NCBI RefSeq assembly: GCF_000786105.1
Contig: NZ_JTEV01000025.1
Span: forward strand, 1-64,000
DNA length: 64,000 nucleotides
Source of the DNA: Bdellovibrio sp. ArHS
GTDB lineage: Bacteria; Bdellovibrionota; Bdellovibrionia; Bdellovibrionales; Bdellovibrionaceae
Direction: 5' to 3'
The position numbers and the translations under genes were made by a program. How positions within the stretch are numbered: the first letter of the stretch is position 1; every line of letters starts with the position of its first letter. This document shows, piece by piece, positions 8,757 through 64,000 of this stretch. The notes beneath the pieces were generated by a model. The model was not told the origin of the DNA, ran no database searches, and was given only the letters and a program-made list of their open reading frames with translations.

Positions 8757-9752
8757 TTAGCTTTCCTGCTCGATTTCTTTTGCTTCTACACGATCTTTAC
8801 GGCGTAGGTAAAAGAACGCGCCACCCAGACTTAGCACAAAGGTTCCCACCTGATAGGCGGTGATGACGGTCGGGCCCAGTTCAATCTGGCGGCCGACGTA
8901 AAGGTTGAACAAGAAATAGAAGGCGGCCTGACCGACGCCGACTCCGGCTGGAGAGATGGGGATGGCCGTCGCCATGAAGCCCAGAGGTGCCACAAGAAAA
9001 TAAGTTCTGGCCGCCACATCATCGAAACCAGCCATTTGCCCGGCCAAATACAAAAAGATGATGGCACATGCTTGCGAGACGAGACTCATCATAATGACCG
9101 CCATAAAGCGTTTTCCGTCCTTCCCGTAAAGATGCATGCTTTCATAAAGTTTCAAAAACTTTTCAGATAAGGGAAGTCTGTGAATGCCTTTTTTAATGGC
9201 GCCCGAATCGTAAAGTTTGACGGAAAAAATAAGACTTAGGGCGATTAAAAAAGCCGCGAACAAGGCGCAGATAAAATAAAACAATGTGAGAAGGGCCGGA
9301 GTCTGAACGATGTGGTGCAGATCGTAGATCATGACCAACAAAGCCAGCAGGATCATCGCAAATAAACCCAACACGCGATCCATAAGGACACTGGTGACGG
9401 CCACGACTTTGCTGCCGGGATTTTCTCGGGTGAAATAATAGGCCTTGATGACGTCGCCACCAACCCCGCCGGGCATGGCGAAGTTAAAAAATGCACCAAT
9501 CAAAGTCAGTTTAAATACCGGCCACGAGCGCGCCGGCAAGCCTTGCGAGCGAATCAGGATGCGCCAACGTTCACTGGCGAAAAAAATATTAAGCGTCACA
9601 AGCAACAAAGCTGTCGCCGCCGCCCAAGGGGTCAGAAGATTCTTGAGTGCAGCAAAGTTTAGTTTTCCGGATTGGATCAGCCAAAAAATAATCGCCGCAG
9701 AAAAGGCGATTTTTAAAGACTGAACCAGAAGCTTTTTTGTGTGCTTAACCAT
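8757..9752 (-). CDS. Lysylphosphatidylglycerol-synthase-type membrane protein (UPF0104/YbhN-like)
   Basis: A 331-residue inner-membrane protein with about eight hydrophobic segments. PGGVGGDVIKAYYF and AIPISPAGVGVGQAAFYFLF are the conserved blocks of the LPG_synthase_TM/AglD/YbhN family. Members act as flippases or lipid-linked transport factors; the substrate here is unknown. It lies 36 bases after kdsA on the same strand and probably belongs to the wbpE-kdsA operon, so a role in surface glycan or lipid A precursor handling is inferred. It converges with the HAD gene with no gap. Confidence 0.8.
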   Translation of the reverse strand: MVKHTKKLLVQSLKIAFSAAIIFWLIQSGKLNFAALKNLLTPWAAATALLLVTLNIFFASERWRILIRSQGLPARSWPVFKLTLIGAFFNFAMPGGVGGDVIKAYYFTRENPGSKVVAVTSVLMDRVLGLFAMILLALLVMIYDLHHIVQTPALLTLFYFICALFAAFLIALSLIFSVKLYDSGAIKKGIHRLPLSEKFLKLYESMHLYGKDGKRFMAVIMMSLVSQACAIIFLYLAGQMAGFDDVAARTYFLVAPLGFMATAIPISPAGVGVGQAAFYFLFNLYVGRQIELGPTVITAYQVGTFVLSLGGAFFYLRRKDRVEAKEIEQES

Positions 9753-9788
9753 GGTTCAGTCTTACTTGAATTCAGGAAGGAACTCTAC

Positions 9789-10640
9789 TTAGAAATGAGT
9801 CGTCCAGATTTTTTTAAGATTTGTTAAAACCGTTTCAAGGTTCTTAAGTGGTAATGATGTCGGACCATCACACAAAGCCTTTTCAGGATTTGGATGAGTC
9901 TCTAAGAAGATGCCATCAACTCCCACCGCCATTGCTGCGCGAGCCAGCGGCCATACCATGTCGCCACGACCCCCGCTGCTTTCACCTGTTGCGCCCGGCA
10001 ACTGCGTGGAGTGAGTGCAGTCCATAATCACCGGGAAGCCCAAGCGGCGCATTTCCACAAGGCCTGTCATGTCGTTAATAAGGCGGTTGTAACCAAAGGT
10101 CGTTCCGCGCTCGCAAAGAAGGATTTTATCATTTCCGGCATTCACAGCTTTTTGGGCAATGGCTTTCATATCCCACGGAGCCAGGAACTGCCCCTTCTTG
10201 ATATGAATCACTTTGCCCGTTTTCGCTGTTTCCACAAGCAAATCGGTTTGCCGAGAAAGGAAGGCAGGAATTTGCAGGACATCTGCCACTTCCGCAGTTT
10301 CTTTCACCTGAATTGTTTCATGGACGTCTGTCAAAAGTGCGCATCCCAATTCGCCTTTGATTTTCTCAAGGCTTTTCAGCGCCGAATTCACACCGGGGCC
10401 GCGGAAGCTGGAAGCGCTTTGACGGTTGGCTTTGTCAAAAGAGCATTTTAAAATCCACGGGATGCCCAAAGCTTTTGTGATTCTTTGGATTTCTTTTCCC
10501 GTTTCCAGAACCATGCCTTCATCTTCGATGATATCCGGACCGGCAAACAAAACAAAATTTTTGCCGTCACCCCAAGTGATTGTCTCGCTGCCGTTTTTTA
10601 GTACGACAGGTTTATTCAAAGGACCAAAACCTGTATTCAT
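9789..10640 (-). CDS. kdsA: 3-deoxy-8-phosphooctulonate synthase (KDO-8-P synthase)
   Basis: Condenses phosphoenolpyruvate with arabinose-5-phosphate to give KDO-8-phosphate for the LPS inner core. The 283-residue TIM barrel carries KCSFDKANRQSASSFRGPG, TDVHE, IPAFLSRQTDL, HIKKGQFLAPWDM and LETHPNPEKALCDGP. It resembles the metal-dependent class (LPG-x-G-x-SGG after THSTQ), and the His, Glu and Asp metal ligands are present. However, the position normally Cys (metal type, AGPC) or Asn (E. coli type) is Asp36 in AGPDIIED. ATG overlaps the upstream stop by one base (TAATG) with AGGGG before it, so translation is coupled. Confidence 0.93.
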   Translation of the reverse strand: MNTGFGPLNKPVVLKNGSETITWGDGKNFVLFAGPDIIEDEGMVLETGKEIQRITKALGIPWILKCSFDKANRQSASSFRGPGVNSALKSLEKIKGELGCALLTDVHETIQVKETAEVADVLQIPAFLSRQTDLLVETAKTGKVIHIKKGQFLAPWDMKAIAQKAVNAGNDKILLCERGTTFGYNRLINDMTGLVEMRRLGFPVIMDCTHSTQLPGATGESSGGRGDMVWPLARAAMAVGVDGIFLETHPNPEKALCDGPTSLPLKNLETVLTNLKKIWTTHF

Positions 10641-48104: not shown

Positions 48105-50612
48105 CTATTGAGAACTGTCGAGGACTCTGAGGATGGTTCGGGCTCCCAGGTACGCATCGTTGTAAGTGTAATTCAGTAAGAGTTCTGTGGAGCTGAGACT
48201 GTAAAAACGTTTTTCGGTGAGTTCGGTGCCGTATTCACCGATGCTTTCGCCGACGGTATATCGGTCGTCGATTTTTTCGATGATAGTCCACGTGCCGGGT
48301 GTAAATCCTTCGGTCACAACCACGTCTCCGTCAGTGGGATCCTTGACAAGGAAGTAGGGGATCGTGCCGCTCCAACCGATATCGAGTACGTTTGCAGGGG
48401 TACTAAAGGGACTCCATGTGGCGCCATTGTCGGTCGACTTGAACATGTTAGAGCCATTGTAGGCATAGACGTCGCCTGTCGGGCTTATCTTCAAAGCAAA
48501 CGAGACTTCCCAATAGTTGGGGAGTGAAGAACCGCGCAGGGCTTCGCTCCACGTAGTGCCGCCATCTGATGAGCGATACACTACGATCGTTGCATCGAAA
48601 TTGATTTGTTCCATGATGATCAGATAGACATTGCCGGCGGTGTCCACCTCTAAAGATTTGGGTTTGATCGAATGAACCCCGCCGGGCAAAGCAAAAGTTT
48701 TTACATGAGACCAGGTTGTTCCATCTGTCGTTTTGCCGACGACTATATTTGCGCCATCTTGTCCCGCGAAATAAGTCGCCGTGGTTTTGTTTGTAGCCAA
48801 GAAGTAATCCCATCCCGGGAAGGCGTACGAGTGCACATCATTCCAAACCGTGCCATCCGTCGATCTGCGTATGGCGGCACCGCCGTTTTTAGTGCCTATA
48901 GCGTAAAGAGCGCCATCATGTCCTTGAATAATATCACTCACGTAGGCGTCGTTCGAGGCGGGGACGAAGCGATCTGAATCCTGCCAGGTAAGACCATTAT
49001 CCAAACTTTTTGTGACGACCCACGGAGAATTTCCATCCATATCGTCGGTGTCAAAGATAGCGTACAAAGTTGTTGGCGAAGTGCGAATGATTTCCGTGAC
49101 GGTACTATAGAAAGCCCATGCAAAGCGGATTTCACTTCCCAGACTCCAGGTGGCCCCATCGTCGCCGGAATAGGCCACCGCTGCTTGATAATCTGTTTTG
49201 TTCGAGCCAATAGCTAAAATCTTGTTCAGGGTCGGATGCGATACGATCGTCAATCCATAGGGCCCTTTAGGTGGAGACAGCAAAGCATCAAGATCTAAAG
49301 GAGTCCACACCGTACCATTTGTAGAAGAGACGATTTTCCAGTCATAGGGATTCGTAGCTCTGTTACCGCCAGTGGCGATCAACTGGCCTGAAGCGGTCAC
49401 CGTCATGCCTTGTAAAAAACTTTGGCCTGAATACACCTCAGCCCAGTTAGCGCCGCCGTCTGTCGTGCGATAAATCTTTCCCAACGCGCCCACGCGGCAT
49501 GAGAAATAGGCCGTGTTGTCGTCAATGACCTGCAAGTTGCCACGCAACTCGTAATCGCCGTAGGTTTGCACAGCGGGAACGGAGGTTGCGGGCGTCCAAG
49601 TCCAGCTTCCCGAACTGAATGTGCCTTTAAGGAAATACATCGTCGCGGAAGGACCGGAGGCGCCGATCACAAAAAGATCGCCTGAAGGAGACACTTTGAC
49701 TTGATAAGCGATGTCGCTACTGCCTCCTGCGAGGGGGGCCGCCTGATAGATTGTGTTCCAAGTCACACCATCGTCTTTACTTTCGCGAATTACCCAGAAC
49801 TGGTCTGTCGTGGATTCAGCGTAACCGACCGCATAGATAAATCCTGTCGTGGGGGACACTGCGATGTCATAGCAGACATGATTAGATCCAGCGACTTCCC
49901 ACCAGTGATCGGAAGTGGTCCAGGTGTTGCCTTCATCGGTAGACCGTCTAACAAACCAGCCCGAGCCGGGATCTGATGGTGTCGTGTCATACGCGTAGGC
50001 GTAACCGCAGACAAAAACAATACTGCCTTTTGCCGTCATCGCTAAAGGGTGGGATTCACCGTGATAGTGGTAACCCATAAATTGATCGACGCGATTCCAA
50101 GTGCCGCCGTCGTCGCTGCTGCGATAAGTGGCCCAGCGTTCGCCTTCGTAGTCACTTCCCACCGCCGTCGTTAAGACCTTACCTGAATCCAGCCATACAG
50201 CATCTGTAATGTAGTTCTGATCTTGCGCCGATTGAGGCATATCGATTCGTCTGAATTCGCGGAAGCCTTTACGATGAATGGTTACGGCGAAAGTTTTTCC
50301 GGTGCTATCAATGACCTCAAGAATTTCATCCACGACTTGCGCATTGGCAGGAATCGAGTACTGTCCTGTTGCGGTGTCAAGATAACCTGATGTCGAAGGT
50401 TTATAAGTGAAAGGCGGTGTTCCTCCGGCAGGCTCAATGGTCATAGAGGAACCAACATCCAAAGTAAGAACTACGGGGACGGCGTCGCTGTCCGAGATAA
50501 TTTTGGAAGTTAAATCTGTTTGAAGAGAAGCATCTATCGAACATGCTGTCAAAAGAAGTATGAAACAAATGACAATCAATTTCCGAGACGTACCGAGTAT
50601 GATGTGATTCAT
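48105..50612 (-). CDS. Large Asp-box (BNR) beta-propeller lipoprotein
   Basis: 835 residues. Lipobox LLTAC (Cys24). After a ~100-residue N-terminal region, at least eleven Asp-box motifs (SxDxGxxW) recur about every 50-60 residues: SSDDGGTW, STDEGNTW, SKDDGVTW, TTDGGANW, STNGTVW, SGDDGATW, SLDNGLTW, STDGTVW, TTDGTTW, SSDGGTTW, STDNGATW. This predicts one or two beta propellers of sialidase, Ycf48 or sortilin type. The Arg triad of true sialidases is not evident, so it may bind glycans or proteins. Promoter not seen. Confidence 0.82.
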   Translation of the reverse strand: MNHIILGTSRKLIVICFILLLTACSIDASLQTDLTSKIISDSDAVPVVLTLDVGSSMTIEPAGGTPPFTYKPSTSGYLDTATGQYSIPANAQVVDEILEVIDSTGKTFAVTIHRKGFREFRRIDMPQSAQDQNYITDAVWLDSGKVLTTAVGSDYEGERWATYRSSDDGGTWNRVDQFMGYHYHGESHPLAMTAKGSIVFVCGYAYAYDTTPSDPGSGWFVRRSTDEGNTWTTSDHWWEVAGSNHVCYDIAVSPTTGFIYAVGYAESTTDQFWVIRESKDDGVTWNTIYQAAPLAGGSSDIAYQVKVSPSGDLFVIGASGPSATMYFLKGTFSSGSWTWTPATSVPAVQTYGDYELRGNLQVIDDNTAYFSCRVGALGKIYRTTDGGANWAEVYSGQSFLQGMTVTASGQLIATGGNRATNPYDWKIVSSTNGTVWTPLDLDALLSPPKGPYGLTIVSHPTLNKILAIGSNKTDYQAAVAYSGDDGATWSLGSEIRFAWAFYSTVTEIIRTSPTTLYAIFDTDDMDGNSPWVVTKSLDNGLTWQDSDRFVPASNDAYVSDIIQGHDGALYAIGTKNGGAAIRRSTDGTVWNDVHSYAFPGWDYFLATNKTTATYFAGQDGANIVVGKTTDGTTWSHVKTFALPGGVHSIKPKSLEVDTAGNVYLIIMEQINFDATIVVYRSSDGGTTWSEALRGSSLPNYWEVSFALKISPTGDVYAYNGSNMFKSTDNGATWSPFSTPANVLDIGWSGTIPYFLVKDPTDGDVVVTEGFTPGTWTIIEKIDDRYTVGESIGEYGTELTEKRFYSLSSTELLLNYTYNDAYLGARTILRVLDSSQ

Positions 50613-50735: not shown

Positions 50736-53288
50736 CTACAGCCCCACGGCCAGCCAATCAATACGGTATTTATTCGTGTTGTGGGGAAGAGTTGTGGTAT
50801 TGCAATTCGTGGCATCGAAACTTCCCATCAGATTAATGTAAATTCGAAAGCTTGTCGCTGTGGGGGTATAAACCGAGGTTGCCCCGGTTGTAACCCAATG
50901 TCCGCCATCGCCTTGAATTGAAGGAAAGTATCTAAATACGGTCGAAAAGCCACAAGCTGAAGTGTCGATATTCATGTAGGCCCCACAGGAGCCCGTGACC
51001 GCAGAATGCAGACTGTAATAAGTCCAGCCTGAATTGGCACTGGTTCCGCTGCACATTCTGAGGGCCGTTCCCGACGTATCCTTGACCGCTCCCACTAAGT
51101 TGCCCGTGATCTTGGCATTCCCGGCGACCTCCAATTTAGCCGAGGGAGTTGTTGTCCCAATACCGACATTGCCATTGTGATCGATGCGCATTCTTTCGCC
51201 GCCATTGACCTCCGTGTTGGTGGTTGTAGTAAATCTTAACGCCGACCCATGCCCCACTGTGCTCCAGTTTTCGGTGGCGATGGCACTGACTCCGGTGGGT
51301 TGTGCTTGGGTTGAGAATCCGACGCCATCGTGTCCCAGAAAGGCCATCCAGCCGAAGGTGTCGTTGGTTTGTGTCGCTGTCGGCGCACTGGCGGTTCCGC
51401 GCGCGCCGCGGGTTTGCATCAATCCTCCAGGATTGGAATTTGCGATGGTGGTTGAAGTGATGCCGCGACTGGTGGCGCCGCTTGTTTCTAAAACCTCCAA
51501 GCTTGTTGCGGGAGCTGCCGTACCAAGCCCTGTCTTGCCATCAGGAAGAATAGTCATCGCCACGGAGTTATTGGTTTTAAAACTTAAAGACTGATTGTCA
51601 TTCGTTCCCAACACGGCCGAGACGCCAAAAGAGTTCCCATTGTTCAAGAACACTGAACTGGTTGTGAACGAGGAACAAGTCATCATTCCAGTGGCATCGA
51701 AAGTCAGTATTTGTCCGTGACCGCAGTTGAATGCGGTTAATGCTGAACCCGTCCCGTTGGTAGCCACTAAACGATTGGCAAGGATGGACGTCGCCCCGGT
51801 GCCCCCTTTAGATACCGGCACGGCAGACGGGAAGGTGGTCGGGTCGGCAGAAACCACTCCTGCGTTGACCGCAAGACCATTTCCGACTTGCATCGCTCCT
51901 TTGCTTGTCGCACTGGCATCATCGATCGTAATCACGGGTGTTGTGCCACCCGATGAAACGACAATCGGAGCCGTGCCAGTGACGTTGGTGACGGTTCCAT
52001 TTGTTGGCGTCACCCATTGCAGTCCAGAAGCTTGGGTGGTGTTGACGGAAAGGACCTGTCCATTCGTGCCCGAAGGCAGGCGAATATCATTGGTACCATC
52101 GTTCACTAACACGTCCCCCTTGGTGGTGAGTGGTGAAAGTGCATTAAAGGCGGCTAGTGCTGTTGCCTGTCCCGTTCCGCCATTAGCAACCGGCAAGACA
52201 CCTGTTACTTCGGTGGAAAGACTGACAGCTGCACCAGAACTGGCCGAGGTCAGTCGTCCTTGGGCATCGACAGTGATTGTGGCCCGCGTGTAAGAGCCCG
52301 CCGTCACGGTGGTATTTGCTAGTGAAATTGTTCCGGTTGTGGAAATCGGACCGCCGCTCAGCCCGGTTCCTGTCACGATGTTGGTGACTGTGCCGCCGGC
52401 GTTGTTATCCGCAGCGGGAGCCCATTTGGTTCCATCATATTTCAAAACTTGTCCCGCAGTGGGGGCTAGGGCGCTGACCGCGGTATTCTGAATTTTTGCG
52501 ACGACGGGGTTGGGATAGGTGCCTGATAAATCTCCTGCCGCCGCTCCGGTGGGTGTTCTGGCGTCACTGAAACGAGCGTCGTCTCCGGCAGCAACGGTTC
52601 CAGCGACGGCACCGATGTTTAAAGTCAGCGCTGGCGTGGAGGTAGTATTGGCGATAGACAGGTAAGCATTGGTTGAGGTGACCTGGGTGACAGTACCACC
52701 AGCAGCCCCAGAAACCGGCGCACACGTAAGGGCCGCCCCTGTCCAGGTCAGAAATTCATTGGCAGAACAGGTGGGTAAACCTGCTTTTAAAAGGAACTCG
52801 TCGGCGGATCGTGTCCCAAGTTTTTCGGCAGAAAGAGCATAAGCGGAGTAGGGGACCGAGCGGATCTCGTTGGCGGGTGAGATCACTTTCCAACCGGTCC
52901 CGTCGTGGAATTGCACTTTCAAAAGACGAATATCCATAGAAGCGGCAGTGTAAGTGGCTCCGCCATAGCAGTTGTGAATTTTGGAATTGTTAAACGCATC
53001 CAACAAAGTAAAAAGGGGATCTGACGGAAAGAGCTTTGTGCCTGAACCGATGGGGACATCAAAAACGCCGTTGGAATTCAAAAGATTCACACCATCGCGC
53101 TGTTCGCGGTAAATGACGCAGCTGCCATTAGGATTTGTAATCTCGAAGATGAAACTGGTGCTTCCATATTCCAACGGGTGCCCATCGCTTTTGACGATGC
53201 GCCCTTGATAGGTCAAAGCATTGGGCGCCGCCGTCGCGAGCGTCCCAAAAAGAGATATGAGAATAAAAAGATACGTGCCTGTTCTCAT
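50736..53288 (-). CDS. Mosaic adhesive fibre protein 1 (phage tail-fibre-like)
   Basis: 850 residues. Signal peptide 1-20. A conserved head domain (~22-170) shared with the protein at 57743. Then fibre repeats: GTVTNV, LSGTYPNP, GVLPVANGGTGQAT and VSKGGTGAT. Near the C-terminal third are triple-stranded stalk signatures MTILPDGKTGLGTAAP and MRIDHNGNVGIGTTTPS, ending in a ~115-residue tip (WTYYSLHSAVTGSCGAYMN ... YRIDWLAVG) that looks like an H-type-lectin-like domain. The pattern matches the mosaic adhesive trimers described for Bdellovibrio, whose tips bind prey surfaces. No clear SD before ATG 53288. Confidence 0.75.
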   Translation of the reverse strand: MRTGTYLFILISLFGTLATAAPNALTYQGRIVKSDGHPLEYGSTSFIFEITNPNGSCVIYREQRDGVNLLNSNGVFDVPIGSGTKLFPSDPLFTLLDAFNNSKIHNCYGGATYTAASMDIRLLKVQFHDGTGWKVISPANEIRSVPYSAYALSAEKLGTRSADEFLLKAGLPTCSANEFLTWTGAALTCAPVSGAAGGTVTQVTSTNAYLSIANTTSTPALTLNIGAVAGTVAAGDDARFSDARTPTGAAAGDLSGTYPNPVVAKIQNTAVSALAPTAGQVLKYDGTKWAPAADNNAGGTVTNIVTGTGLSGGPISTTGTISLANTTVTAGSYTRATITVDAQGRLTSASSGAAVSLSTEVTGVLPVANGGTGQATALAAFNALSPLTTKGDVLVNDGTNDIRLPSGTNGQVLSVNTTQASGLQWVTPTNGTVTNVTGTAPIVVSSGGTTPVITIDDASATSKGAMQVGNGLAVNAGVVSADPTTFPSAVPVSKGGTGATSILANRLVATNGTGSALTAFNCGHGQILTFDATGMMTCSSFTTSSVFLNNGNSFGVSAVLGTNDNQSLSFKTNNSVAMTILPDGKTGLGTAAPATSLEVLETSGATSRGITSTTIANSNPGGLMQTRGARGTASAPTATQTNDTFGWMAFLGHDGVGFSTQAQPTGVSAIATENWSTVGHGSALRFTTTTNTEVNGGERMRIDHNGNVGIGTTTPSAKLEVAGNAKITGNLVGAVKDTSGTALRMCSGTSANSGWTYYSLHSAVTGSCGAYMNIDTSACGFSTVFRYFPSIQGDGGHWVTTGATSVYTPTATSFRIYINLMGSFDATNCNTTTLPHNTNKYRIDWLAVGL

Positions 53289-53502
53289 CTAAAAGACTTA
53301 TCGGATGCCATAGAACTTTCATTAAGTTAATGGGGAGGTAAGAGGAACTGGGCTCGTATTTACGACCTCCATCTGCAAATGGATTTAATTTGCCGCTTAG
53401 CATCAGCGAGCCTAAAGTCTTGCTTTGACTCCCTGCGTTCGGCTTAACCTATGAAAGTCATTCATTAAAATTCGTTAACATCTCGTGAAGGATCAAGCGA
53501 CC

Positions 53503-55260
53503 GTGAGTAAGATTACCAAAAGTAGCACCGCTGAATATTTTGCGAAGAACCTCCAACAGGTGGGATTTTCGTCTCCTTTGAAAGCCGTTTTGACGACTTT
53601 AAAAGAAGCCGTGGACAACTCTTTGGATGCGTGTGAGCAAGCGGGCATTCTTCCTGATCTTCTAGTTGAAGTCACCAAAGTAGGAACGGGTTCTACTAAA
53701 AATACTGATTTAATTCGCATCGTTGTCGAAGATAACGGACCTGGAATCGAAGCTGAAGATCTTGCCAAAGTTTATGGTGAGTACTTGGCTTCGTCAAAAT
53801 TTGGTCGTGGACAGTGTTCACGCGGTCAGCAAGGTATTGGTATCTCTGCGGCGACGACGTGGGCGCAAATGACCAATGCCCGTGGTGTAAACGTTATTTC
53901 CAAGACCAAAAAGATGCGTAAAGCGATCTCTGCGCAAGTGGATGTCGACATCAAATCCAATACAGGTGTTCTAAAAAATAAGGAAACTTTGGACTGGGAT
54001 CGTGAACACGGAACTCGTGTTGAATTCGTTCTTGATGGACGTATTCAGTTAAACGGTGACGGCGGTATCGTGACTTATATTGAGGGCACAATCCTGGTAA
54101 ATCCGCATATGACCATCACTTACAAGTTGATGGAAAACGACTATGTGACTGTGAACCGTGTCAGCACGGATGTGCCGCAAGTTCCCGAGGCGTCCTTGCC
54201 TCATCCTCACACGTTTAAACTGGGCGAGTTCATCACGCACTCCACTTTGTTCGGAAAAACCACGCTTTCTAAGTTCTTAAAGACCGGTTTTTCGCGTATT
54301 TCGGACCAGTCTATCTCTGAATTTACAAAAAAAGGTCTGCCTAAAAATCTTTTGGAAAAACCTCTGACTTCATTGACGGAAGAGGATTTTAAAAAGGTGT
54401 TCCAAGCCGTGCAAAACACGGACTTGATGGCGCCTTCCACGAAGTCAGTTTTGACGGTAGGGGAAGAAGCTCTTTCTAAATCCATCACTCGTCTTGGTGA
54501 AATCGACTTCTTTGCGGTGGTGACACGTAAACCGACAATCTGTGACTTTAAACCGGTTGTGGTGGAAGTCGCATTGGCGCGTTTCAAAGACCGCTATCAA
54601 GAGGCCGACAGCCCAGTGACTTTGCTTCGTTTCGCGAACCGTGTGCCATTGCAATTTGATAAATCAGGTTGCGCAATCACCTGGGCGATTGAGTCTGTGA
54701 ACTGGAAGTCCTATGGTTTGGGACAACCCAAAGACAGCTTGCCGCTAGGTCCTTACATCTTTGCAGTGTCTGTGGTTTCGCCATTCATCAAGTTTAAAAA
54801 TGCTTCGAAAGAAACGATTGATGCTTCCGAAGAGTTGGTGGCAGAAATTCGTTTGGCTTTGATTCAAGCTGGTCAAAGACTGTCTCGTCACATCAAAAAA
54901 GAAGTGAAAGAGGCGGATCTTGAAAGAAAACTGGCGCACATCGAGCAGTTCGGTCCAATCTTGGTTGAAGGTTTGGCGCGTATCATTAATGCTCCCGAGT
55001 CTCGTAAGAAAAAGGCTGAAGAAGGTTTGAAAAAACTTTTAGGTCGCGATTCTGAAGAGGCGATCGCTGATTTGGAAGCGGCGGAATCTAAACTTCTTGA
55101 GCAGAAAAAGCGCGAGAAGAAAAAGGGCATCGATCACGAGATCGAAGAAGACGTGATCAGCAGTGAAGATCTTGTCGAAGAAGCCTCTGAGTCGGCGGGC
55201 ACGAAGAAGACGACGACAAAAAAAGAAACGACTAAAAAAACAACTGGTAAAAAGAAGTAG
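53503..55260 (+). CDS. top6B: DNA topoisomerase VI subunit B
   Basis: ATPase subunit of a type IIB topoisomerase, which passes one duplex through another. 585 residues. The GHKL ATPase has the N box KEAVDNSLDA (Glu35, Asn39, Asp42), G1 EDNGPGI and G2 GQQGIGI. H2TH and transducer regions follow, with GLGQPKDSLPLG carrying the ATP-contacting Lys. The last ~100 residues are coiled-coil and Lys/Thr-rich. GTG 53503 has AAGGA at 53488-53492; the longer frame from GTG 53485 has no SD. The next gene is subunit A, 8 bases on. Topo VI is typical of archaea and plants and uncommon in bacteria. Confidence 0.93.
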   Translation: MSKITKSSTAEYFAKNLQQVGFSSPLKAVLTTLKEAVDNSLDACEQAGILPDLLVEVTKVGTGSTKNTDLIRIVVEDNGPGIEAEDLAKVYGEYLASSKFGRGQCSRGQQGIGISAATTWAQMTNARGVNVISKTKKMRKAISAQVDVDIKSNTGVLKNKETLDWDREHGTRVEFVLDGRIQLNGDGGIVTYIEGTILVNPHMTITYKLMENDYVTVNRVSTDVPQVPEASLPHPHTFKLGEFITHSTLFGKTTLSKFLKTGFSRISDQSISEFTKKGLPKNLLEKPLTSLTEEDFKKVFQAVQNTDLMAPSTKSVLTVGEEALSKSITRLGEIDFFAVVTRKPTICDFKPVVVEVALARFKDRYQEADSPVTLLRFANRVPLQFDKSGCAITWAIESVNWKSYGLGQPKDSLPLGPYIFAVSVVSPFIKFKNASKETIDASEELVAEIRLALIQAGQRLSRHIKKEVKEADLERKLAHIEQFGPILVEGLARIINAPESRKKKAEEGLKKLLGRDSEEAIADLEAAESKLLEQKKREKKKGIDHEIEEDVISSEDLVEEASESAGTKKTTTKKETTKKTTGKKK

Positions 55261-55268
55261 GTTGAACG

Positions 55269-56432
55269 ATGGGAAAACTACTCAGCATTCGTGAATTAAA
55301 AATTGATATTCCCAAAGAAGCCCGCATTTTGGCCGACAAGATGCTTAGGGATCTTGAGTCTTCAAAGCGTCCGGTTTTAGAGGCGGTAAAAACATCTCTG
55401 GATAATTCTTTGTACAACTCTAAAGTGGGTTACCTCACGCCGGGGGACAAAGTTGTCCGTACTGAACTGAACGTTTCTTCTGTTCAGAAGCTAGCGCGTG
55501 TGGTTTTCGTTTTGGAAATCCTTTTGAACAACCTGGACAAAGGCGCGGTAAATACAAAGCGTGAGCTTTATTACATGTGTAAAGGTCTGATTAAAGGGAA
55601 TCCTCGTTTGAAGCCGTTGGATTTCGACGACCAACCGGAATCAGACGCGATCATCGATTTCATCGGTGATATGCTTGAAGTGTACCGTGAAGAATTGAAC
55701 TGTTTCGCCAATGACCGTGGGGGTCAGACGTACTCTCAACAACTGGTTGTGACCGAAACCTTGCCGGATGGCGATAAGGCCGTTGTCGATCTTTCGACTT
55801 TGGGTACTTCCCCATTCCAACCGAAGAACAAACCTCAGTCTTTGAAGTTGAAAGCGAAAAAGAAAATCGATTTCTGCTTGATCGTTGAGTCTGAAGGTAC
55901 GGCGAATACTTTGGTCACGATGGGTTTCACTCGTCGTAACAACTGTATCGTGATGGGTGCGCAAGGGGTTCCATCGAACGGCGTGCGTGGTTGGTCGAAA
56001 TTGATCCAGGAAGAGTTGGACGTGCCAATGTACTTCTTCGGGGATCTCGATGCGTACACATTGCAAAACATCTTCCGTACTTTGAAAGCGGGATCGGCGG
56101 CATCTTTGATTCGTAATGCTGACTTCTCGGCTCCGAACGTCAAATTCTTGGGCGTTTTGCCTGAAGACGTGAAGAAATACGATCTTCCTCACTACAAAGT
56201 GAAAGAATCCGATCCAGCTGAAGCGCGCGCTCTGAAAAAAGCCAAAGACGCTTTGGAAAACGATCCGTTCTTCTTGGACAAAAAGAACAAAAACTTGGCG
56301 GACATCCTACGCTGGTTGATCAAAGAAAAGATTCGTTGTGAGCAACAGTCTTTCTTCTCTGTCGACCCGAACGATCCGATCAAGACCGAAAAATTGATCT
56401 TGGAAAAGATCAAAAGAGGTTCTTACGTATAG
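55269..56432 (+). CDS. top6A: DNA topoisomerase VI subunit A (Spo11-like)
   Basis: DNA-cleaving subunit. 387 residues. The 5Y-CAP domain has TKRELYYMCK with the candidate catalytic Tyr at Y101/Y102. The Toprim domain has the metal Glu207 in IVESEGT and the DxD pair Asp259 and Asp261 in FFGDLDAYT. KAGSAA follows as in archaeal proteins. All catalytic residues are present, so the pair is likely active. Directly downstream of top6B and followed by a terminator: a two-gene operon. Confidence 0.93.
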   Translation: MGKLLSIRELKIDIPKEARILADKMLRDLESSKRPVLEAVKTSLDNSLYNSKVGYLTPGDKVVRTELNVSSVQKLARVVFVLEILLNNLDKGAVNTKRELYYMCKGLIKGNPRLKPLDFDDQPESDAIIDFIGDMLEVYREELNCFANDRGGQTYSQQLVVTETLPDGDKAVVDLSTLGTSPFQPKNKPQSLKLKAKKKIDFCLIVESEGTANTLVTMGFTRRNNCIVMGAQGVPSNGVRGWSKLIQEELDVPMYFFGDLDAYTLQNIFRTLKAGSAASLIRNADFSAPNVKFLGVLPEDVKKYDLPHYKVKESDPAEARALKKAKDALENDPFFLDKKNKNLADILRWLIKEKIRCEQQSFFSVDPNDPIKTEKLILEKIKRGSYV

Positions 56433-56470: not shown

Positions 56471-56651
56471 TTGTGGGCAAAGGAACTCTTCCTTTCTAGC
56501 CAAAGAAAGTGAGGGGATCGCCTTTGACACTGTTGCTTGTCGCCACGGTGGCGGTCGAAGTCTATGTTGAAGTTCCTGGCTGGCTTCCCGAGTTGTTCGC
56601 TTGAAAAATTGATGTTAGCGTTTCTAAAACATCTTTTCTTTGGAACTTTCT

Positions 56652-57476
56652 ATGAAAACGCTTTCTGTTCTTTTTGCAATCTTCCTGCTGACAGCCTGCT
56701 CAACGGCACCAAAAAAGTCTGCAACGGAAAAAATGTCTTCAGAAAATTTTTTCGCCGGCAAGAAGGGCTGTTTTCTTTTGTTCAATATGAAAACCGGCAG
56801 TTACGACAAAGTGATCGGGGACGAGGTTTGTAAAGAACGTTATCCGGCATGTTCAACCTTCAAAGTTCCTTTGGCGGTGATGTCGTTCGATGCGAAGGTG
56901 CTGAAAGACGAAAATGAAGTTTTGCAGTGGGATGGCCATAAAGATATTCGCCCGGAAGTAAATCAAGATCACGACGCCAAGACTTGGATGAGAGACTCTG
57001 TCGTTTGGTTTTCGCAAAGACTGACACCGAAAATGGGAAAGAAGAAGTTCCAGAAATATTTGCGCGATTTCAACTATGGCAATCAAGATATTTCCGCGGG
57101 AATTAAAACGGCTTGGTTGAAACCTCCTCAGCAAAATGGACTGCAGATCACGGCTTATGAGCAGGTGGAATTCATGAAAAAACTTTGGACCGAGCAGTTG
57201 CCTGTGTCGCAAAGGTCGATGCAACGGGCTCGGGAAATCACCTATCTTGAGACCTCGCCGCAAGGTTTTAAGTTGCATGGTAAAACCGGTTCTAATTTTT
57301 ATGATCAGCAACGCAAGATCAATTTTGGCTGGTTCATCGCGCACCTTCAGAAAGATGGCCAAGAATATATTGCCGTGACCAATCTGAGCGATTTAGCGCC
57401 TTCTGAGGAAGGTTATGGTGGTCCTCGGGCTAAGCGAATCACTAAGCAGATCTTGGCATCTGAAGGTCTGTGGTAA
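56652..57476 (+). CDS. Class D (OXA-type) beta-lactamase, lipoprotein
   Basis: 274 residues from ATG 56652. Lipobox LLTAC (Cys16). All class D motifs are present: S68-T-F-K71, S116-V-V118, Y142-G-N144 and K211-T-G213, so it should be an active serine hydrolase, either beta-lactamase or a penicillin-recognising relative. The start at 56640 (TTG) is less likely. It lies between topoisomerase VI and fibre protein 2 on the same strand, with no resistance-element features around it. Confidence 0.9.
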   Translation: MKTLSVLFAIFLLTACSTAPKKSATEKMSSENFFAGKKGCFLLFNMKTGSYDKVIGDEVCKERYPACSTFKVPLAVMSFDAKVLKDENEVLQWDGHKDIRPEVNQDHDAKTWMRDSVVWFSQRLTPKMGKKKFQKYLRDFNYGNQDISAGIKTAWLKPPQQNGLQITAYEQVEFMKKLWTEQLPVSQRSMQRAREITYLETSPQGFKLHGKTGSNFYDQQRKINFGWFIAHLQKDGQEYIAVTNLSDLAPSEEGYGGPRAKRITKQILASEGLW

Positions 57477-57742
57477 CCAAACACTTCATTTTTAAAAATA
57501 TTTAATCTTACTTAAACCGGGCACGTTTCCTTGTGTCCGTTGAGTCAAACGAAAAAAATCTTCAAACAACTCGCATAGATTAGACTTCATTTTGGAAAGA
57601 TGTCTTTTCGTGCCGCCTCAAGTTCCATTCTTACCACCTGCAGACACATCGGACTCACACCGATAGAAATTCGGAAACGAGTTTTACTAGGAATATTGTG
57701 TCTATCTCGCGGATTTCAACAACTAGATTTGGAGATACTTGT

Positions 57743-59890
57743 ATGTGCAGAGCAAGGCAAATGAGCGGTCTGTTTTGGGTGATGGGTTGCCTTAGTATTT
57801 ATTCAGCCGTAGCGGGGGCTTCGCTGAACACGCTCACCTATCAGGGGCGAATCACGGGGGACAATGGGGCACCTCTGGAATATAATAACGTCAGTTTCTT
57901 TTTTGAAATCACAGATCCGTCGGGCAATTGTGTAATTTATAAAGAGCAAAAAGACGGCGTCAATATGACAGGTTCCAAAGGTCTTTTTGATGTGGCGATT
58001 GGTTCCGGCACCAAACAGTTTCCCGCAGACCCACTCTTCAAACTTTTGGATGCTTTTGCAAATAACAACGTTACTTTCAACTGTGCGGCGGGAGGCACTT
58101 ATCAGTCTTCAGCCGGGGCCCTTCGTCTGTTGCGAGTGCAATTTCATGATGGCAGTTTGTGGCATCAGATATCTCCTGCAAACGAGATAAGAAGCGTTCC
58201 TTATGCCGCTGTGTCGTTTTCTGCGGAAAAGTTAGGAACATTCTTGCCGACAGATTTTCTTTTAAAGACGGCGTTGCCCGCCTGTGCTCCAGGTCAGGTT
58301 CTTTCGTCGAATGGCACGACCATCAGCTGCGTGGTCGATTCGGGCGGTGGTGGAACCGTCAGCACGGTGACTGGCACCGGCCCTATTACTACGTCAGGAA
58401 CCACGGCGATTACTGTCGGAATTGATGTCGGAACGACGGCAGGGACTGTCGCCGCTGGGAATGATGCTCGTTTCACCGATGCGCGGACTCCAACGGGAAC
58501 TGCAGGCGGCAGTCTTAGTGGCACGTATCCCAATCCGGGTATTGCCGACGGGGCTATTTCAACGACCCAGCTTTTTTCCAATCCGGGTATTAATAGACTT
58601 GTCGCCACGGATGGAGTGACCGGAGCAAACCTCGCCCCGGTCACATGTGGAACTTTGGATCATATTCTAAAATGGTCCGGGACAGGTTGGAGTTGCGCAA
58701 GTGCCTCGTCTTTGATTGCCGCGGATTTTAAAGCGGATGGCTCAGTGCCTATGACGGGGGCTTTGCTAGCGGCCTCAGGAACAGCGGCGGCTCCCTCGAT
58801 TTCTTTTGCCAGTGATTCCGGAACCAACACAGGACTTTTCCGGGCGGCCGAAGATGTTCTGGGTGTAGCGACGGCAGGCAGTGAACGGATGCGCATCGAT
58901 GCCAATGGAAATGTTGGCGTGGGAACTTCTTCGCCCACGGCGCTTCTGCATTTAAGTACTCTGACAACCCAGAATCGTATTTTACAAAATTCCACCACGG
59001 GGGCCAACGAGCATGCGATGAGTACGCAAGGCGGTTCGAATATTTTGAATATGAGTTATGCGGCAGCGGGGAACACGGCACCGGCCAGTGGAAATATTTT
59101 GGGGGCCTGGACGTGGTCGTCTTATGACGGCAGTGCGTATGGAAATGCGGCGAGTATTCGCGTCGAATCCGATGGCGCGGCTTCAAGTGGTAATACACCC
59201 GGAAAAATCAGATTCTTGACTACACCCACGGGTTCTGTGAATCCCATTCCACGCGTGGTCATTGATAAAAACGGCAACGTCGGTGTGGGAACTTCGACGC
59301 CGGGCTACCTGGTGGATGTGCACACGACCAATGCGACGTCAGGCATTCGCGTGTCCAACGATGATTCAACCTCCACACAAAATCCTGCGATGTTGGTTTC
59401 TAATCACATGGGAACGGCGCTGACGGGACGACCGATGTTTGTTGTGCAATCCAGTCGCGGCAGTGCCAGTGCGCGCACGGCCGTTCAGGCCGGAGATTCG
59501 TTAGGAGGCTTCTTTGGTTTTGGCTATGACGGAGCCGCTTTTTCCGAGGGCGCACGTATCGAGTTCATTGCGACAGAACCCATATTTTCCGGCGCCGGCC
59601 GTGGCAGTAAAATTTATTTCCAAACAGTCAGTAATGGTTCGACGACCTCCAACACGCGAATGGCCATTGATCACAACGGCAATATTGGTATTGCGACGGT
59701 GACCCCAGTGGAAAAACTCGATGTGAATGGCAACATGAAAGTAAAGAAGAATTCATCGGAACCCTATCCTTGCGATATCGATCATGACGCCGTGTTGGCG
59801 ATCACCTCAGGCTATCGTCAATGTATCTGCAAAGGTGGAACGGCAACGTGGGTTTACACCTCTGATGGTTCCACGAGCTGCGTCTGGTAA
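57743..59890 (+). CDS. Mosaic adhesive fibre protein 2
   Basis: 715 residues from ATG 57743 (GGAG 57732-57735); signal peptide to about residue 26. The head domain (~28-165) closely parallels fibre 1: LTYQGRI, PLEY, DPSGNCVIYKEQKDGVN, IGSGTKQFP, ISPANEIRSVPYAA, SAEKLGT. Repeats LSGTYPNP, then MRIDANGNVGVGTSSP, VIDKNGNVGVGTSTPG and MAIDHNGNIGIATVTP build the stalk. The tip is a different, short Cys-rich domain (YPCDIDHDAV ... CICKGGTATW) of about 45 residues. A polysaccharide lyase follows 46 bases on. Confidence 0.78.
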   Translation: MCRARQMSGLFWVMGCLSIYSAVAGASLNTLTYQGRITGDNGAPLEYNNVSFFFEITDPSGNCVIYKEQKDGVNMTGSKGLFDVAIGSGTKQFPADPLFKLLDAFANNNVTFNCAAGGTYQSSAGALRLLRVQFHDGSLWHQISPANEIRSVPYAAVSFSAEKLGTFLPTDFLLKTALPACAPGQVLSSNGTTISCVVDSGGGGTVSTVTGTGPITTSGTTAITVGIDVGTTAGTVAAGNDARFTDARTPTGTAGGSLSGTYPNPGIADGAISTTQLFSNPGINRLVATDGVTGANLAPVTCGTLDHILKWSGTGWSCASASSLIAADFKADGSVPMTGALLAASGTAAAPSISFASDSGTNTGLFRAAEDVLGVATAGSERMRIDANGNVGVGTSSPTALLHLSTLTTQNRILQNSTTGANEHAMSTQGGSNILNMSYAAAGNTAPASGNILGAWTWSSYDGSAYGNAASIRVESDGAASSGNTPGKIRFLTTPTGSVNPIPRVVIDKNGNVGVGTSTPGYLVDVHTTNATSGIRVSNDDSTSTQNPAMLVSNHMGTALTGRPMFVVQSSRGSASARTAVQAGDSLGGFFGFGYDGAAFSEGARIEFIATEPIFSGAGRGSKIYFQTVSNGSTTSNTRMAIDHNGNIGIATVTPVEKLDVNGNMKVKKNSSEPYPCDIDHDAVLAITSGYRQCICKGGTATWVYTSDGSTSCVW

Positions 59891-59936
59891 AAAGGACTTA
59901 ATAGATTTTCTGTTTCAATCTCAATAAGGAGAAGTG

Positions 59937-62528
59937 ATGAGTCCGGTTAATTTATTCCATCTGCGTACGATAATCTTGGTGTCGACCGCCTTCTTAACGG
60001 CTTCTTGCGAATTCGGTTCCGGCGGCAAAGAAATTCAGGCATCAAAAAAGGCTCCCGAGGTTTCTCCGGCGCCGCCTCCTTCATCAAGTGCGCCTCCGCC
60101 TTCCACGGTGGGCACACCTCCAGGATCAGTTCAGCCAGCGCCCCCCGCGAGCGAGCCACCGCCCGAGGAAAATGAAACACCTCCGACGCCGACAGAGTCT
60201 CCTCCTGTGGAGGAGCCACCGCCTGTGCAAGAGCCGGAGCCAACTCCAACGCCAACTCCTGCGCCGGTACCGGAAACGCCGCCGTCGCCAGAACCGCCCG
60301 CGGAACCGGAAGTGCCGCCAACAACGGAAAATCCTCCTCCCGAGAGTGAGCCTGCTCCCGTTGTAGTTTGTACGCCGAACACAGTTCAGGACTGGATGGC
60401 TAGTGGCAATGCTTTGGCGCAAGTCGTGCGGCCTACAGATTGTAACACCGTCGAGCAAACGCCGCCGGATTTCCGTTGGCCTGACGTCGCGACATCCGGG
60501 GGCTATCAAGTGACCCTGACTTATCCCAATGGTTCAACGAAGACTTTGAATGCGTCTCAGAACTGGTTGAATTGGGATGAAGTGTTGCCAGTGGGAACTT
60601 ATTCATGGGTGGTTAAAAATCCAGCCGGCGTGACCAGCGCGCCCCGAAAATTTATCGTCGATGCGAATTCGAAACCGTTTGTAGTTCCGAATATCTCGAC
60701 GTTATTAAGTACAGTATCCGCGAAAACGCATCCACGTTCGTTGCCTGAGGCATTGACTTTAGAGTTAATGAAGACGCAGCGACAGTCCGCGATCAATTCA
60801 CTGTTAAGTCAGGTCAACAGCCGTCTTTCGCAAACTCTTCCCAATCCAGGAACGACGGCGACGGATTGTTTTAACTACAGTAAATATGCCCTGGCGTCTT
60901 TGCAGGCCTGTGTTTTCAGCGGGCAGACCAGTTATTGTAACGATGCGATTAATAGAGTCATGAATTTGGCGTCGTGGGATCCGAATGGCCCGACGAAATA
61001 TTCTCTTCCGGCCGGGACAGATATGGCGGCTCGATACCTGACTTGGACTGTGGCGGTGGGATACGATTGGCTGTATTCGCGCCTGACTTCCGCACAACGG
61101 TCGCAGATTTTGGCGATGCTGATCGCGCGCAATGGGTTGATGTATAACGATATTATCGGGACACGCTCGCGAATCTCAGTCAATCCCCGCGACTCTCACG
61201 GCAATCAGACTTTAACTATCGTCGCTGTTATTGCGTCGCTGGTGGTCGGCGATCTTCCCGAGGCGAATACCTGGTTTACGAATGCGCTTCCTCAGGCGGT
61301 GAACGCGATCAACCCTTGGGCGGACGAAGACGGTGGTTTTGCCAACGCGGCGACTCAGGGAAATTGGGATGTCGGTGAAATGTTGCCATCGCTTTACCAA
61401 CTTCGTTACGGAACAGGAATCGATGTGGCGCAAAAACCGTGGATTCGAAACTGGGGTCGTTATTTCGCTTACTTCACGCCGCCAGGAATGTCAGAGTTCA
61501 CGACAGTTTTCGGTGACGGGTTTGAACGGAATCAAGGCGAGCAGCAGGCGCGATACGGAAAAGGTTACACGTTTTTTTCGCCATCACCCTTGGGCCGCTG
61601 GCACATGTCTAAAATCAGTGGAGAGGATCGGACTCGTATCGAATACCTCTTGGCGCCTCCTGCCGATTTTACCGGAACTCAGCCTTTCCCTGAAGGAACA
61701 CCCCACGCGCTTTGGTTGAAGTCCATCGGGCAGGTGGCAATGCATAGTGATCTGTCTAATCTTGCCAGAACCTCGGTGTACTTTAAATCCAGTCCAAAGC
61801 CTTATGGCGCTTTTAATCACAGCCACGCGGATCAAAATAGTTTTGTCATCAACTCGGGAGGCAAAAGACTGGCCATCGAGTCAGGTTACTATGACGACTA
61901 TAAAACGCCGCATTGGCTGAAGTGGTATCATACGACGAAGGCGAAAAATGCCGTGACCTATGACGACGGCAAGGGACAGGTCTTCTATGAAGTGAATAAT
62001 AAAATGGGATCAGGGGACGTCACTTTATTCAAGCACACCCCAACCTATGACATTGTCAGCGGTGATGCGACATCTGCCTATGATGGAGCTTTATCGAAAG
62101 CCAAGCGAACTCTGGTCTATTTACGTCCGAATTTGGTGGTGGTGTATGACGACCTGGCATCGACAACGGCCCGTCAGTGGGAGTGGAATATTCATGCGCT
62201 CAATCAGATGACCTCTTCGAACAATACTCAGGCTAAGATCACCAATGGCAGTGAAACTCTTTGTATCGATGTGCTTGCTGGACCTGGCGTGCAGTTTTCT
62301 CAGCATAATATCTTTACCGAAAACCCGTCCAATGGAGGGGCCGCTCAGTGGCATGGAAAGTTTTATAATGCGACAAGAACAACCAATGCCGAGTTTGTCG
62401 TTCTGCTGAATATCGGCTGTTCAACGTTAACAGCGTCAGCAACAAAGACTTCGGGAAAGTGGAATATTCAGGTGGGAAATCGAAGTGTGAGCATTGAAGC
62501 GGGAGCTGTGACGGTTCAAGATCCCTAA
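59937..62528 (+). CDS. Heparinase II/III (DUF4962-type) polysaccharide lyase lipoprotein with proline-rich stalk
   Basis: 863 residues from ATG 59937 (AAGGAG 59926-59931). Lipobox LTASC. Residues ~30-145 are a Pro/Glu/Thr-rich stalk. Then an Ig-like segment ([20 protein letters not shown]), an alpha-helical toroid (~240-560, [15 protein letters not shown]), and the C-terminal heparinase II/III-like beta-sandwich with [16 protein letters not shown] and VVYDDLAST. Such enzymes cleave acidic polysaccharides by beta-elimination; substrate unknown. It follows fibre protein 2 by 46 bases, probably one operon. Confidence 0.82.
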
Positions 62529-62539
62529 AAAAGATCTGG

Positions 62540-62595
62540 CTGTGTCTGCTTTTTGCCCGACTTATATGTCTTCACGAGGACAGAGGCAGACACAG
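62540..62595. repeat. Perfect 10-bp inverted repeat after the lyase gene
   Basis: CTGTGTCTGC (62540-62549) and GCAGACACAG (62586-62595) with a 36-base spacer that can itself fold (GTC...GAC). No T-run follows on the + strand. It may stabilise the 3' end of the lyase transcript or act in the leader of the KH gene. Confidence 0.6.
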
Positions 62596-62671
62596 AAAGT
62601 GAGAAAGTGTTTTAAATTGGTCTTTCCGGATTTCTTAGAGGTTATTAATCTTAAGAAAAGGGAGTTCGCTT

Positions 62672-63031
62672 ATGTCAGACACCGGAAAGTTGAACGTTGT
62701 TAAAGTCAGAAAGGCACTCTTTACGGAATCCGCGAGCGCCAGAAATCTGGAAGCGACTCCTGCTGTGCCCGGAGAAGAAGACCTGGTTCGTGAAGAAGCC
62801 GGTCTGTTGCTTGAGATTTTACTGCGCCGAATAGTGCCGGAACCGAATGATGTCAGCGTTTCTTTCGCTAAGGGAGAACGCACCACCGTTTACAAAGTGG
62901 AATGTTCGAAGAACAACTTCAGCTACATACTGGGAAAACAAGGGAAGACCATTGATGCTCTTCGGAAAGTCGTGTCCGTGATCACAAGTCGTCATGGCAT
63001 TCGCTCCGTGGTCGAGATTCCTTATTATTAA
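62672..63031 (+). CDS. KH-domain RNA-binding protein (KhpA-like)
   Basis: 119 residues. A ~45-residue acidic N-terminus precedes a KH domain with GKQGKTIDALRKV (GxxG loop) and VVEIPYY. KhpA-like proteins bind RNA broadly in Gram-positives. The N-terminal extension is longer than in KhpA (about 80 residues). AAGGGAG lies upstream of ATG 62672. It is convergent with the kinase gene. Confidence 0.8.
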   Translation: MSDTGKLNVVKVRKALFTESASARNLEATPAVPGEEDLVREEAGLLLEILLRRIVPEPNDVSVSFAKGERTTVYKVECSKNNFSYILGKQGKTIDALRKVVSVITSRHGIRSVVEIPYY

Positions 63032-63036
63032 AAAGC

Positions 63037-64000
63037 TTAAGACAAGCGAAAGGCCACAGACACCTCAAAGCCTTCCGGGGAAGTCGTCGTCCGCAACCTG
63101 AGATGTCCCTGATGGGATTCTACGATGGAACGAACAATCACACTACCCAGCCCCAAGGAACCTTTGAAACCGTCGGCCGTAAAAGTACGGCTTTTCTTTT
63201 TTTGTCCGTATTGCCGAATCTGCTCCTCGCTGGGTAACTGACCATCGTTCCAAACTTTAAGAAGAAGAAGTCTCTTTTTTTCCGCGACTTCAATATTTAT
63301 AGTTCGTGCTTTGGCATTGAGGGCGTTTTCAAGAAGATTGGAAATAAGTCGCTTTGCCAGAACAGAATCTATTTTTAACAAAGCGCCGGCATAGTTTTTG
63401 GTTTGAACATGAATCGTCGGCAGATGGGACGAGGTCGCCTGCAGCTTTTGAATCTCGATATTGACGAGATCGGCCAGATTGATCGTTTCCGTCGTGGGTC
63501 CTCGACGTGCTTGAATCTCTGCCAGAAAAAACAAATCTTCAATCAGTTTGCTCAGGTAAAGAGACTCTCCGGAGATGACGTTCAGAAGATTCCTCTGAGA
63601 AACTGGCGGCAAGTTCTGCGAGTACATCAAGGTTTCAGACGCACCGGTCAGACTTGTCAGAGGCGTTCGCAGATCATGGGCTATTTCTTGTAAAACGAGC
63701 AGTCTTTCTTGCTCATAAGTCCGAAGTTTTTCGCCGACAACTTGCAGCTTATCTGCCATTTGATTGAAGATCGGAATCAGCCCTGAAGAACGGTCGAATT
63801 TGGAAAGGGGAACTCGTGCAGAAAGATTTCCTTTTTCGATCTCCATAAGGGTTTTGTCGATCATCAAAGACTTTCGCTTTAAATAGAAAATCATCGCAGC
63901 GATCGAGGCCAGATACACAAAGAAGCAAGAAATGAAAACCGCAGTGACCACAATAACACTCAAACGAACGATCGGGCCTTTTCGATCGTCGCGAAAGCCG
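63037..64000 (-). CDS. Sensor histidine kinase (partial, 5' end outside window)
   Basis: The visible 321 codons are open to the window edge, with FRDDRKGPIVRL just before the membrane helix SVIVVTAVFISCFFVYLASI. HAMP-like linker at about 30-85, dimerisation H box EIAHDLRTPL, N box LLENALNAKA, and G2 GSLGLGSVIV. The G1 block is reduced to NDGQLPSEEQ. It would autophosphorylate and pass phosphate to a receiver. The sensory domain and true start lie beyond base 64000; the TTG at 63963 is not the start. Confidence 0.9.
   Translation of the reverse strand, partial: GFRDDRKGPIVRLSVIVVTAVFISCFFVYLASIAAMIFYLKRKSLMIDKTLMEIEKGNLSARVPLSKFDRSSGLIPIFNQMADKLQVVGEKLRTYEQERLLVLQEIAHDLRTPLTSLTGASETLMYSQNLPPVSQRNLLNVISGESLYLSKLIEDLFFLAEIQARRGPTTETINLADLVNIEIQKLQATSSHLPTIHVQTKNYAGALLKIDSVLAKRLISNLLENALNAKARTINIEVAEKKRLLLLKVWNDGQLPSEEQIRQYGQKKKSRTFTADGFKGSLGLGSVIVRSIVESHQGHLRLRTTTSPEGFEVSVAFRLS

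Follow-up and report, generated by a model that had tools for sequence, protein, structure and literature searches.

A MAT-family fibre gene beside a gene for a PL15-like lipoprotein with an altered catalytic position in a strain-specific island of Bdellovibrio sp. ArHS

Results

A fibre gene is followed by a separate gene for a lyase-like lipoprotein

We analyzed 64,000 nucleotides of Bdellovibrio sp. ArHS (contig NZ_JTEV01000025.1, positions 1 to 64,000, forward strand; hereafter the window), which lie on a 96-kb contig within a 3.54-Mb genome, and focused on two neighboring genes near the window end, one for a fibre of the MAT family (fibre 2) and one for a lipoprotein resembling polysaccharide lyases (Table 1). 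An earlier note on this DNA had described a fibre gene followed, after 46 bases on the same strand, by a lipoprotein lyase of the heparinase II/III-DUF4962 type in a predatory bacterium. These points were borne out: both open reading frames (ORFs) are intact and placed as the note gave them, DUF4962, Hepar_II_III_C and a lipobox were found in the second product, and the genome is that of a Bdellovibrio. The note's title had called the locus fused, which was mistaken, since the genes encode two separate proteins. A scan of the gap for promoter or terminator patterns found none, and co-transcription of the two genes, which the note had implied, is for this reason plausible but goes no further than that. 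The lyase-like gene may start at ATG 59937, with AAGGAG 5 bp before it, or at GTG 59934.

Table 1 Features of the locus, in window coordinates except where marked as lying past the window
Feature	Position	Strand	Description
MAT fibre 2	57743-59890	+	ATG 57743 or GTG 57698; 715 residues
Intergenic gap	59891-59936	+	46 bp; holds AAGGAG ribosome-binding site (sequence, pattern scan)
Lyase-like lipoprotein	59937-62528	+	863 residues; Pfam PF16332 and PF07940; profile match to Atu3025 and BIexoHep
Signal peptide with lipobox, Cys24	59937-60008	+	PS51257 pattern
Proline-rich stalk	60021-60359	+	113 residues, 39% Pro; relatives without stalk at N-terminal end
PL15-like core	60369-62525	+	Common to L074-L077; 52-64% identity over ~715 residues
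His421 codon	61197-61199	+	Base; equals His311 of Atu3025, His337 of BIexoHep; kept
Gln474 codon (CAG)	61356-61358	+	At catalytic Tyr365 of Atu3025, Tyr390 of BIexoHep
His628 codon	61818-61820	+	Equals His531 of Atu3025, His555 of BIexoHep; kept
Island, window part	57477-64000		~9.78 kb in total, 57476 to about 67252 of the contig
Small KH-domain protein	62672-63031	+	PF13083; within the island
Histidine kinase	63037-64000	-	Continues to 64419, past the window end
Response regulator	64412-65083		Past the window; island member
Feruloyl-esterase-like protein	65680-67119		Past the window; island member

Fibre 2 matched NF053851, the MAT N-terminal domain, with 209 bits (cut-off 60, E = 3e-62) over about residues 17–176. 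Judged by this domain and its C-terminal tip, it is a predicted member of the known MAT superfamily, for which binding to prey glycans has been demonstrated (PMC10769870), and the note's description of a prey-binding fibre is supported to that extent. A Pfam scan of the fibre returned no match at all, S74 included, and we therefore assign it, by the absence of S74, to the NS74 type. The middle of the protein matches phage tail-fibre PHROGs, and the tip comprises ~45 Cys-rich residues (CDIDHD...TSCVW); the sole match to the full tip region elsewhere in the genus was one MAT-like protein of another Bdellovibrio genome (G016, 40%). The host genome carries 19 MAT genes.

The neighboring gene encodes a putative lipoprotein, as indicated by a signal peptide with a lipobox. 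Its DUF4962 (E = 6e-19) and Hepar_II_III_C (E = 9e-21) matches both exceed the Pfam cut-offs and correspond to the toroid and beta-sandwich of a PL15 domain, the family to which the nearest solved relatives belong. An AlphaFold model built from a five-sequence alignment reached a predicted local distance difference test score of 50, left the active site unmodeled, and was not used.

The position of the catalytic tyrosine holds glutamine

To place the active-site residues, we used a profile of five proteins, the host copy and its relatives L074–L077 (described below), which aligned to the PL15 lyases Atu3025 (3a0o, E = 1e-61) and BIexoHep (6lja, E = 2e-36). Both active-site histidines are kept, and the column of the catalytic tyrosine holds Gln474; Arg199 of Atu3025 lands in an alignment gap. 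The CAG codon of Gln474 is two base changes from every tyrosine codon and therefore does not reflect a single sequencing error. Across the five proteins and one decayed remnant from a second Bdellovibrio genome (G003), on which this split is based, the column reads Tyr in L074, L075 and L077, and Gln in the host copy, the remnant and L076.

Published mutants give this residue its weight: the Tyr mutant of VBAly15A was inactive while a His mutant retained 18% (PMC11921355), and mutating any of His337, Tyr390 or His555 in BIexoHep abolished nearly all activity (PMC7904915). By this rule, strong canonical lyase activity appears unlikely, and because the tyrosine that is essential in the tested PL15 enzymes is Gln474 here, any depolymerase activity of the lipoprotein is doubtful. 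We thus file the protein as PL15-like rather than as a PL15 lyase, a classification by sequence that leaves eliminase activity aside.

Relatives of the lyase-like protein lie near secretion and polysaccharide genes

Among 84,980 species genomes, the lyase-like protein has four close relatives: L074 from an uncultured proteobacterium, L075 from a Rhodocyclaceae metagenome-assembled genome and L076 from Dechloromonas hankyongensis, all at 62–64% identity, and L077 at 52%. The L075 gene is flanked on one side by an MBOAT acyltransferase and an ALGX-like protein (below the Pfam cut-off), and on the other by type II secretion system (T2SS) genes G, F and E and a secretin; a secretin also lies downstream of L074, and a Wzz/GNVR chain-length protein ~2.3 kb upstream of L076. 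Polysaccharide-related genes stand near the relatives in two of the three loci seen, and from these neighbors we read the Rhodocyclaceae-type proteins as secreted enzymes acting on extracellular polysaccharide. Two of the relatives, L074 and L075, have a linker rich in proline after the lyase domain and then, at the C-terminus, CBM6/CBM35 carbohydrate-binding modules (CBMs). The host copy shares the core only: it is without CBMs and carries its lipoprotein anchor and stalk at the N-terminal end. L076 (9599–14800) is 1734 residues long, with a lengthy additional region at its C-terminus, and its lyase domain has Gln in place of the catalytic Tyr and likewise of the base His.

The GC content at third codon positions (GC3) of the host gene is 0.53, compared to a window mean of 0.51 and to 0.73–0.90 in the relatives. 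Because it matches the window genes and not the relatives, any transfer of the gene would be old, and a recent transfer straight from Rhodocyclaceae is not supported by composition; a tree of the five lyases settled neither the sister of the host copy nor the direction of transfer. We also considered the high GC at 57.5–62 kb as a mark of foreign DNA and rejected this, as MAT1, the other MAT gene of the window, has equal GC and the proline-rich stalk raises GC. Similarly, a phage origin of the lyase was rejected, with one weak match (22%) among 50,697 phage records and none confirmed in IMG/VR.

The pair lies in an island found in one genome

Besides the fibre and lyase-like genes, the island holds a KH protein, a histidine kinase with a response regulator, and a feruloyl-esterase-like protein. 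It is missing from G001 and G018, the two genomes closest to that of the host, where its flanks, a class D beta-lactamase-like gene and the 67365 gene, meet with 6–7 bp unmatched between them. Regions of congeners were read with the topoisomerase VI A gene as synteny anchor; an orthologous KH gene was rejected for this purpose, as KH genes form a large paralogous family. The fibre–lyase pair was not found at the same site in the other congeners examined, one of which (G020) has another MAT at a nearby but different point, and no counterpart of the histidine kinase was found at E <1e-60 in the other 23 Bdellovibrio genomes. Acquisition of the island would be a simpler account than its loss in all other genomes.

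The lyase domain is likewise rare. PF07940 occurs once in the host genome and in none of the other Bdellovibrio genomes (24 including the host), and in 7 of 141 genomes of the order, host included; elsewhere in Bdellovibrionota, we found weak, distant matches only. The host genome has the only intact lyase among the 24. The remnant in G003 (L045, C184, about 9340–9920) has internal stops and missing parts, lies between unrelated genes, and already encodes Gln at the place of the catalytic Tyr.

Several neighboring genes were also characterized. Immediately before the island, at 56640–57476, is a lipoprotein akin to class D beta-lactamases (179 bits vs an NCBIfam cut-off of 250), which is found at this location in G001 and G018 as well. 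Genes for topoisomerase VI-like subunits B and A lie at 53485–56432, the A gene being present in 24 of 24 Bdellovibrio genomes at 91–99% identity. KhpA-like small KH proteins gave 13 matches in the host genome and 3–11 in congeners.

Close downstream neighbors are common for MAT genes

To judge the spacing of the pair, we surveyed 72 MAT genes in four genomes. A co-directional downstream neighbor was present for 45, and within 150 bp for 40; for comparison, 21 of the 55 window ORFs have a close co-directional downstream neighbor. With 40 of 72 MATs alike in this respect, a neighbor 46 bp downstream is ordinary, and adjacency to a fibre is weak evidence of joint function. Among the neighbors are other MATs, amidases and a BNR lipoprotein, along with many proteins of unrelated kinds.

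Two arrangements are of note. MAT1 (50736–53288, minus strand) has, 123 bp downstream, a gene for an 835-residue BNR/Asp-box lipoprotein (48105–50612, minus strand), a pair that is kept in G018 with a gap of 94 bp and a lipoprotein of 832 residues; this hints that the pairing of a fibre with a carbohydrate-type lipoprotein may recur, although two cases make no rule. Separately, an amidase-like (N-acetylmuramoyl-alanine) gene lies no more than 70 bp downstream of a MAT at L094 (G000), L119 (G018) and L157 (G020, where the amidase was called by sequence), so that a neighborhood of MAT and wall-cutting enzyme looks conserved in three Bdellovibrio genomes.

Discussion

We tentatively favor, at somewhat short of even odds, a reading of this locus as a strain-specific accessory module that engages acidic polysaccharide of prey or flocs, binding it more than clearing it. 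The island would add one more MAT prey-recognition fibre, and an outer-membrane lipoprotein, probably on the same transcript, would hold a PL15-like domain (alpha/alpha toroid and beta-sandwich) on a proline-rich stalk. The fibre may then touch the prey, with the domain on its stalk docking into the surrounding polymer. Cleavage would be weak, altered or absent because the essential Tyr is Gln, and binding would be expected to prevail over clearing. We infer the surface display, the substrate and the joint action of the two proteins, as we do their common transcript. Several observations weigh against this reading. The pair is known from one genome, close co-directional neighbors are usual for MATs, and around the G003 remnant no MAT motif was found in the ~19 kb read. 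The role of the Rhodocyclaceae relatives itself comes from gene neighbors, and the AlphaFold model was too poor for a three-dimensional look at the active site. Moreover, with both histidines and most family-invariant residues kept, the protein could be an active enzyme that uses another acid/base residue.

The two genes may instead be neighbors by chance, side by side merely through having arrived in one island, with MAT loci serving as variable, gene-collecting sites and the lipoprotein working alone, in scavenging nutrients, on the predator's own matrix or to no effect. The mixed identity of MAT neighbors, the position of the G003 remnant away from MATs, the two-component and esterase genes that the island carries as well, and the nearby MAT of G020 all fit such an account; we nonetheless consider it rather unlikely, given the 46-bp spacing without a terminator, a lipoprotein export route that suits the same surface as the fibre, and the second window MAT that also precedes a carbohydrate-type lipoprotein. 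The earlier note had suggested that one protein binds the prey and the other clears its capsule. In this version the lipoprotein would be an active depolymerase, degrading the capsule or exopolysaccharide of prey through beta-elimination as the fibre keeps hold of the cell. A PL15-like architecture with both histidines in an intact frame, relatives that have the canonical Tyr and CBMs and lie beside T2SS and polysaccharide-related genes, and an adjoining fibre from a glycan-binding family (PMC10769870) would all accord with an active depolymerase. We regard it as unlikely, and the note's version as not upheld: the essential Tyr is Gln474, the lyase is rare in the genus and its pairing with a fibre confined to one genome, the adjacency is of a usual kind, and Bdellovibrio is reportedly not hindered by prey capsules (Koval & Bayer 1997, cited in PMC9025206). 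Loss of the Tyr, together with the decayed G003 copy, might also suggest a pseudoenzyme on its way out. This seems highly improbable, as the 863-codon frame is intact, most family-invariant residues are kept and codon use is fully host-like; in addition, Gln is already present in the remnant, which makes an old change probable, one that the host copy has since outlived.

A more specific history is a long shot, and we mention it as such: the predator would have adopted a lyase domain of betaproteobacterial kind, lost the CBMs, the secretion-type signal and the catalytic Tyr, and made it, as a stalked lipoprotein, part of a two-protein device with a MAT that grips the exopolysaccharide coat of such bacteria. 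Some betaproteobacteria with such a lyase domain could be prey of Bdellovibrio. Little is known of how Bdellovibrio copes with slime, capsules or the matrix of flocs; as to prey recognition, MAT fibres offer the best explanation at present. If the favored reading is true, a strain island with a fibre and an exopolysaccharide-directed surface protein would offer a testable route to differences in prey range. The change from Tyr to Gln further raises the question of whether a lyase fold has been turned into a binding protein.

Comparison with known systems

Like the B. bacteriovorus MATs (Caulton et al. 2024, PMC10769870), fibre 2 has a MAT N-terminal domain after a signal peptide, a phage-fibre-like middle and a variable C-terminal tip, in a family of ~20 copies per genome with S74 and non-S74 members. 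It differs in being short, in its strain-specific island, in its small Cys-rich tip, and in the polysaccharide-lyase-like lipoprotein directly 3' of it; the main text of that study does not mention a lyase. The lyase-like protein shares DUF4962 and Hepar_II_III_C, in the same order, with Atu3025 (an oligoalginate lyase) and BIexoHep (an exoheparinase), and keeps the base His and the +2 His, but the sequence relation is distant, and Gln in place of Tyr, the lipoprotein anchor and the proline-rich stalk set it apart. The lyase-CBM proteins L074, L075 and L076 are closer over the ~715-residue core, yet they have no N-terminal stalk and no MAT beside them.

Phage tail-spike depolymerases, to which the earlier note had likened the locus, share the idea of combining binding with polymer cutting, and the MAT middle does match phage tail-fibre families. 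There, however, both functions reside in one trimeric chain, whereas here two ORFs lie 46 bp apart, and the likeness serves as a picture rather than as homology. Compared to all of these systems, the locus is new in how it arranges parts that are already known, and one of its residues is unexpected.

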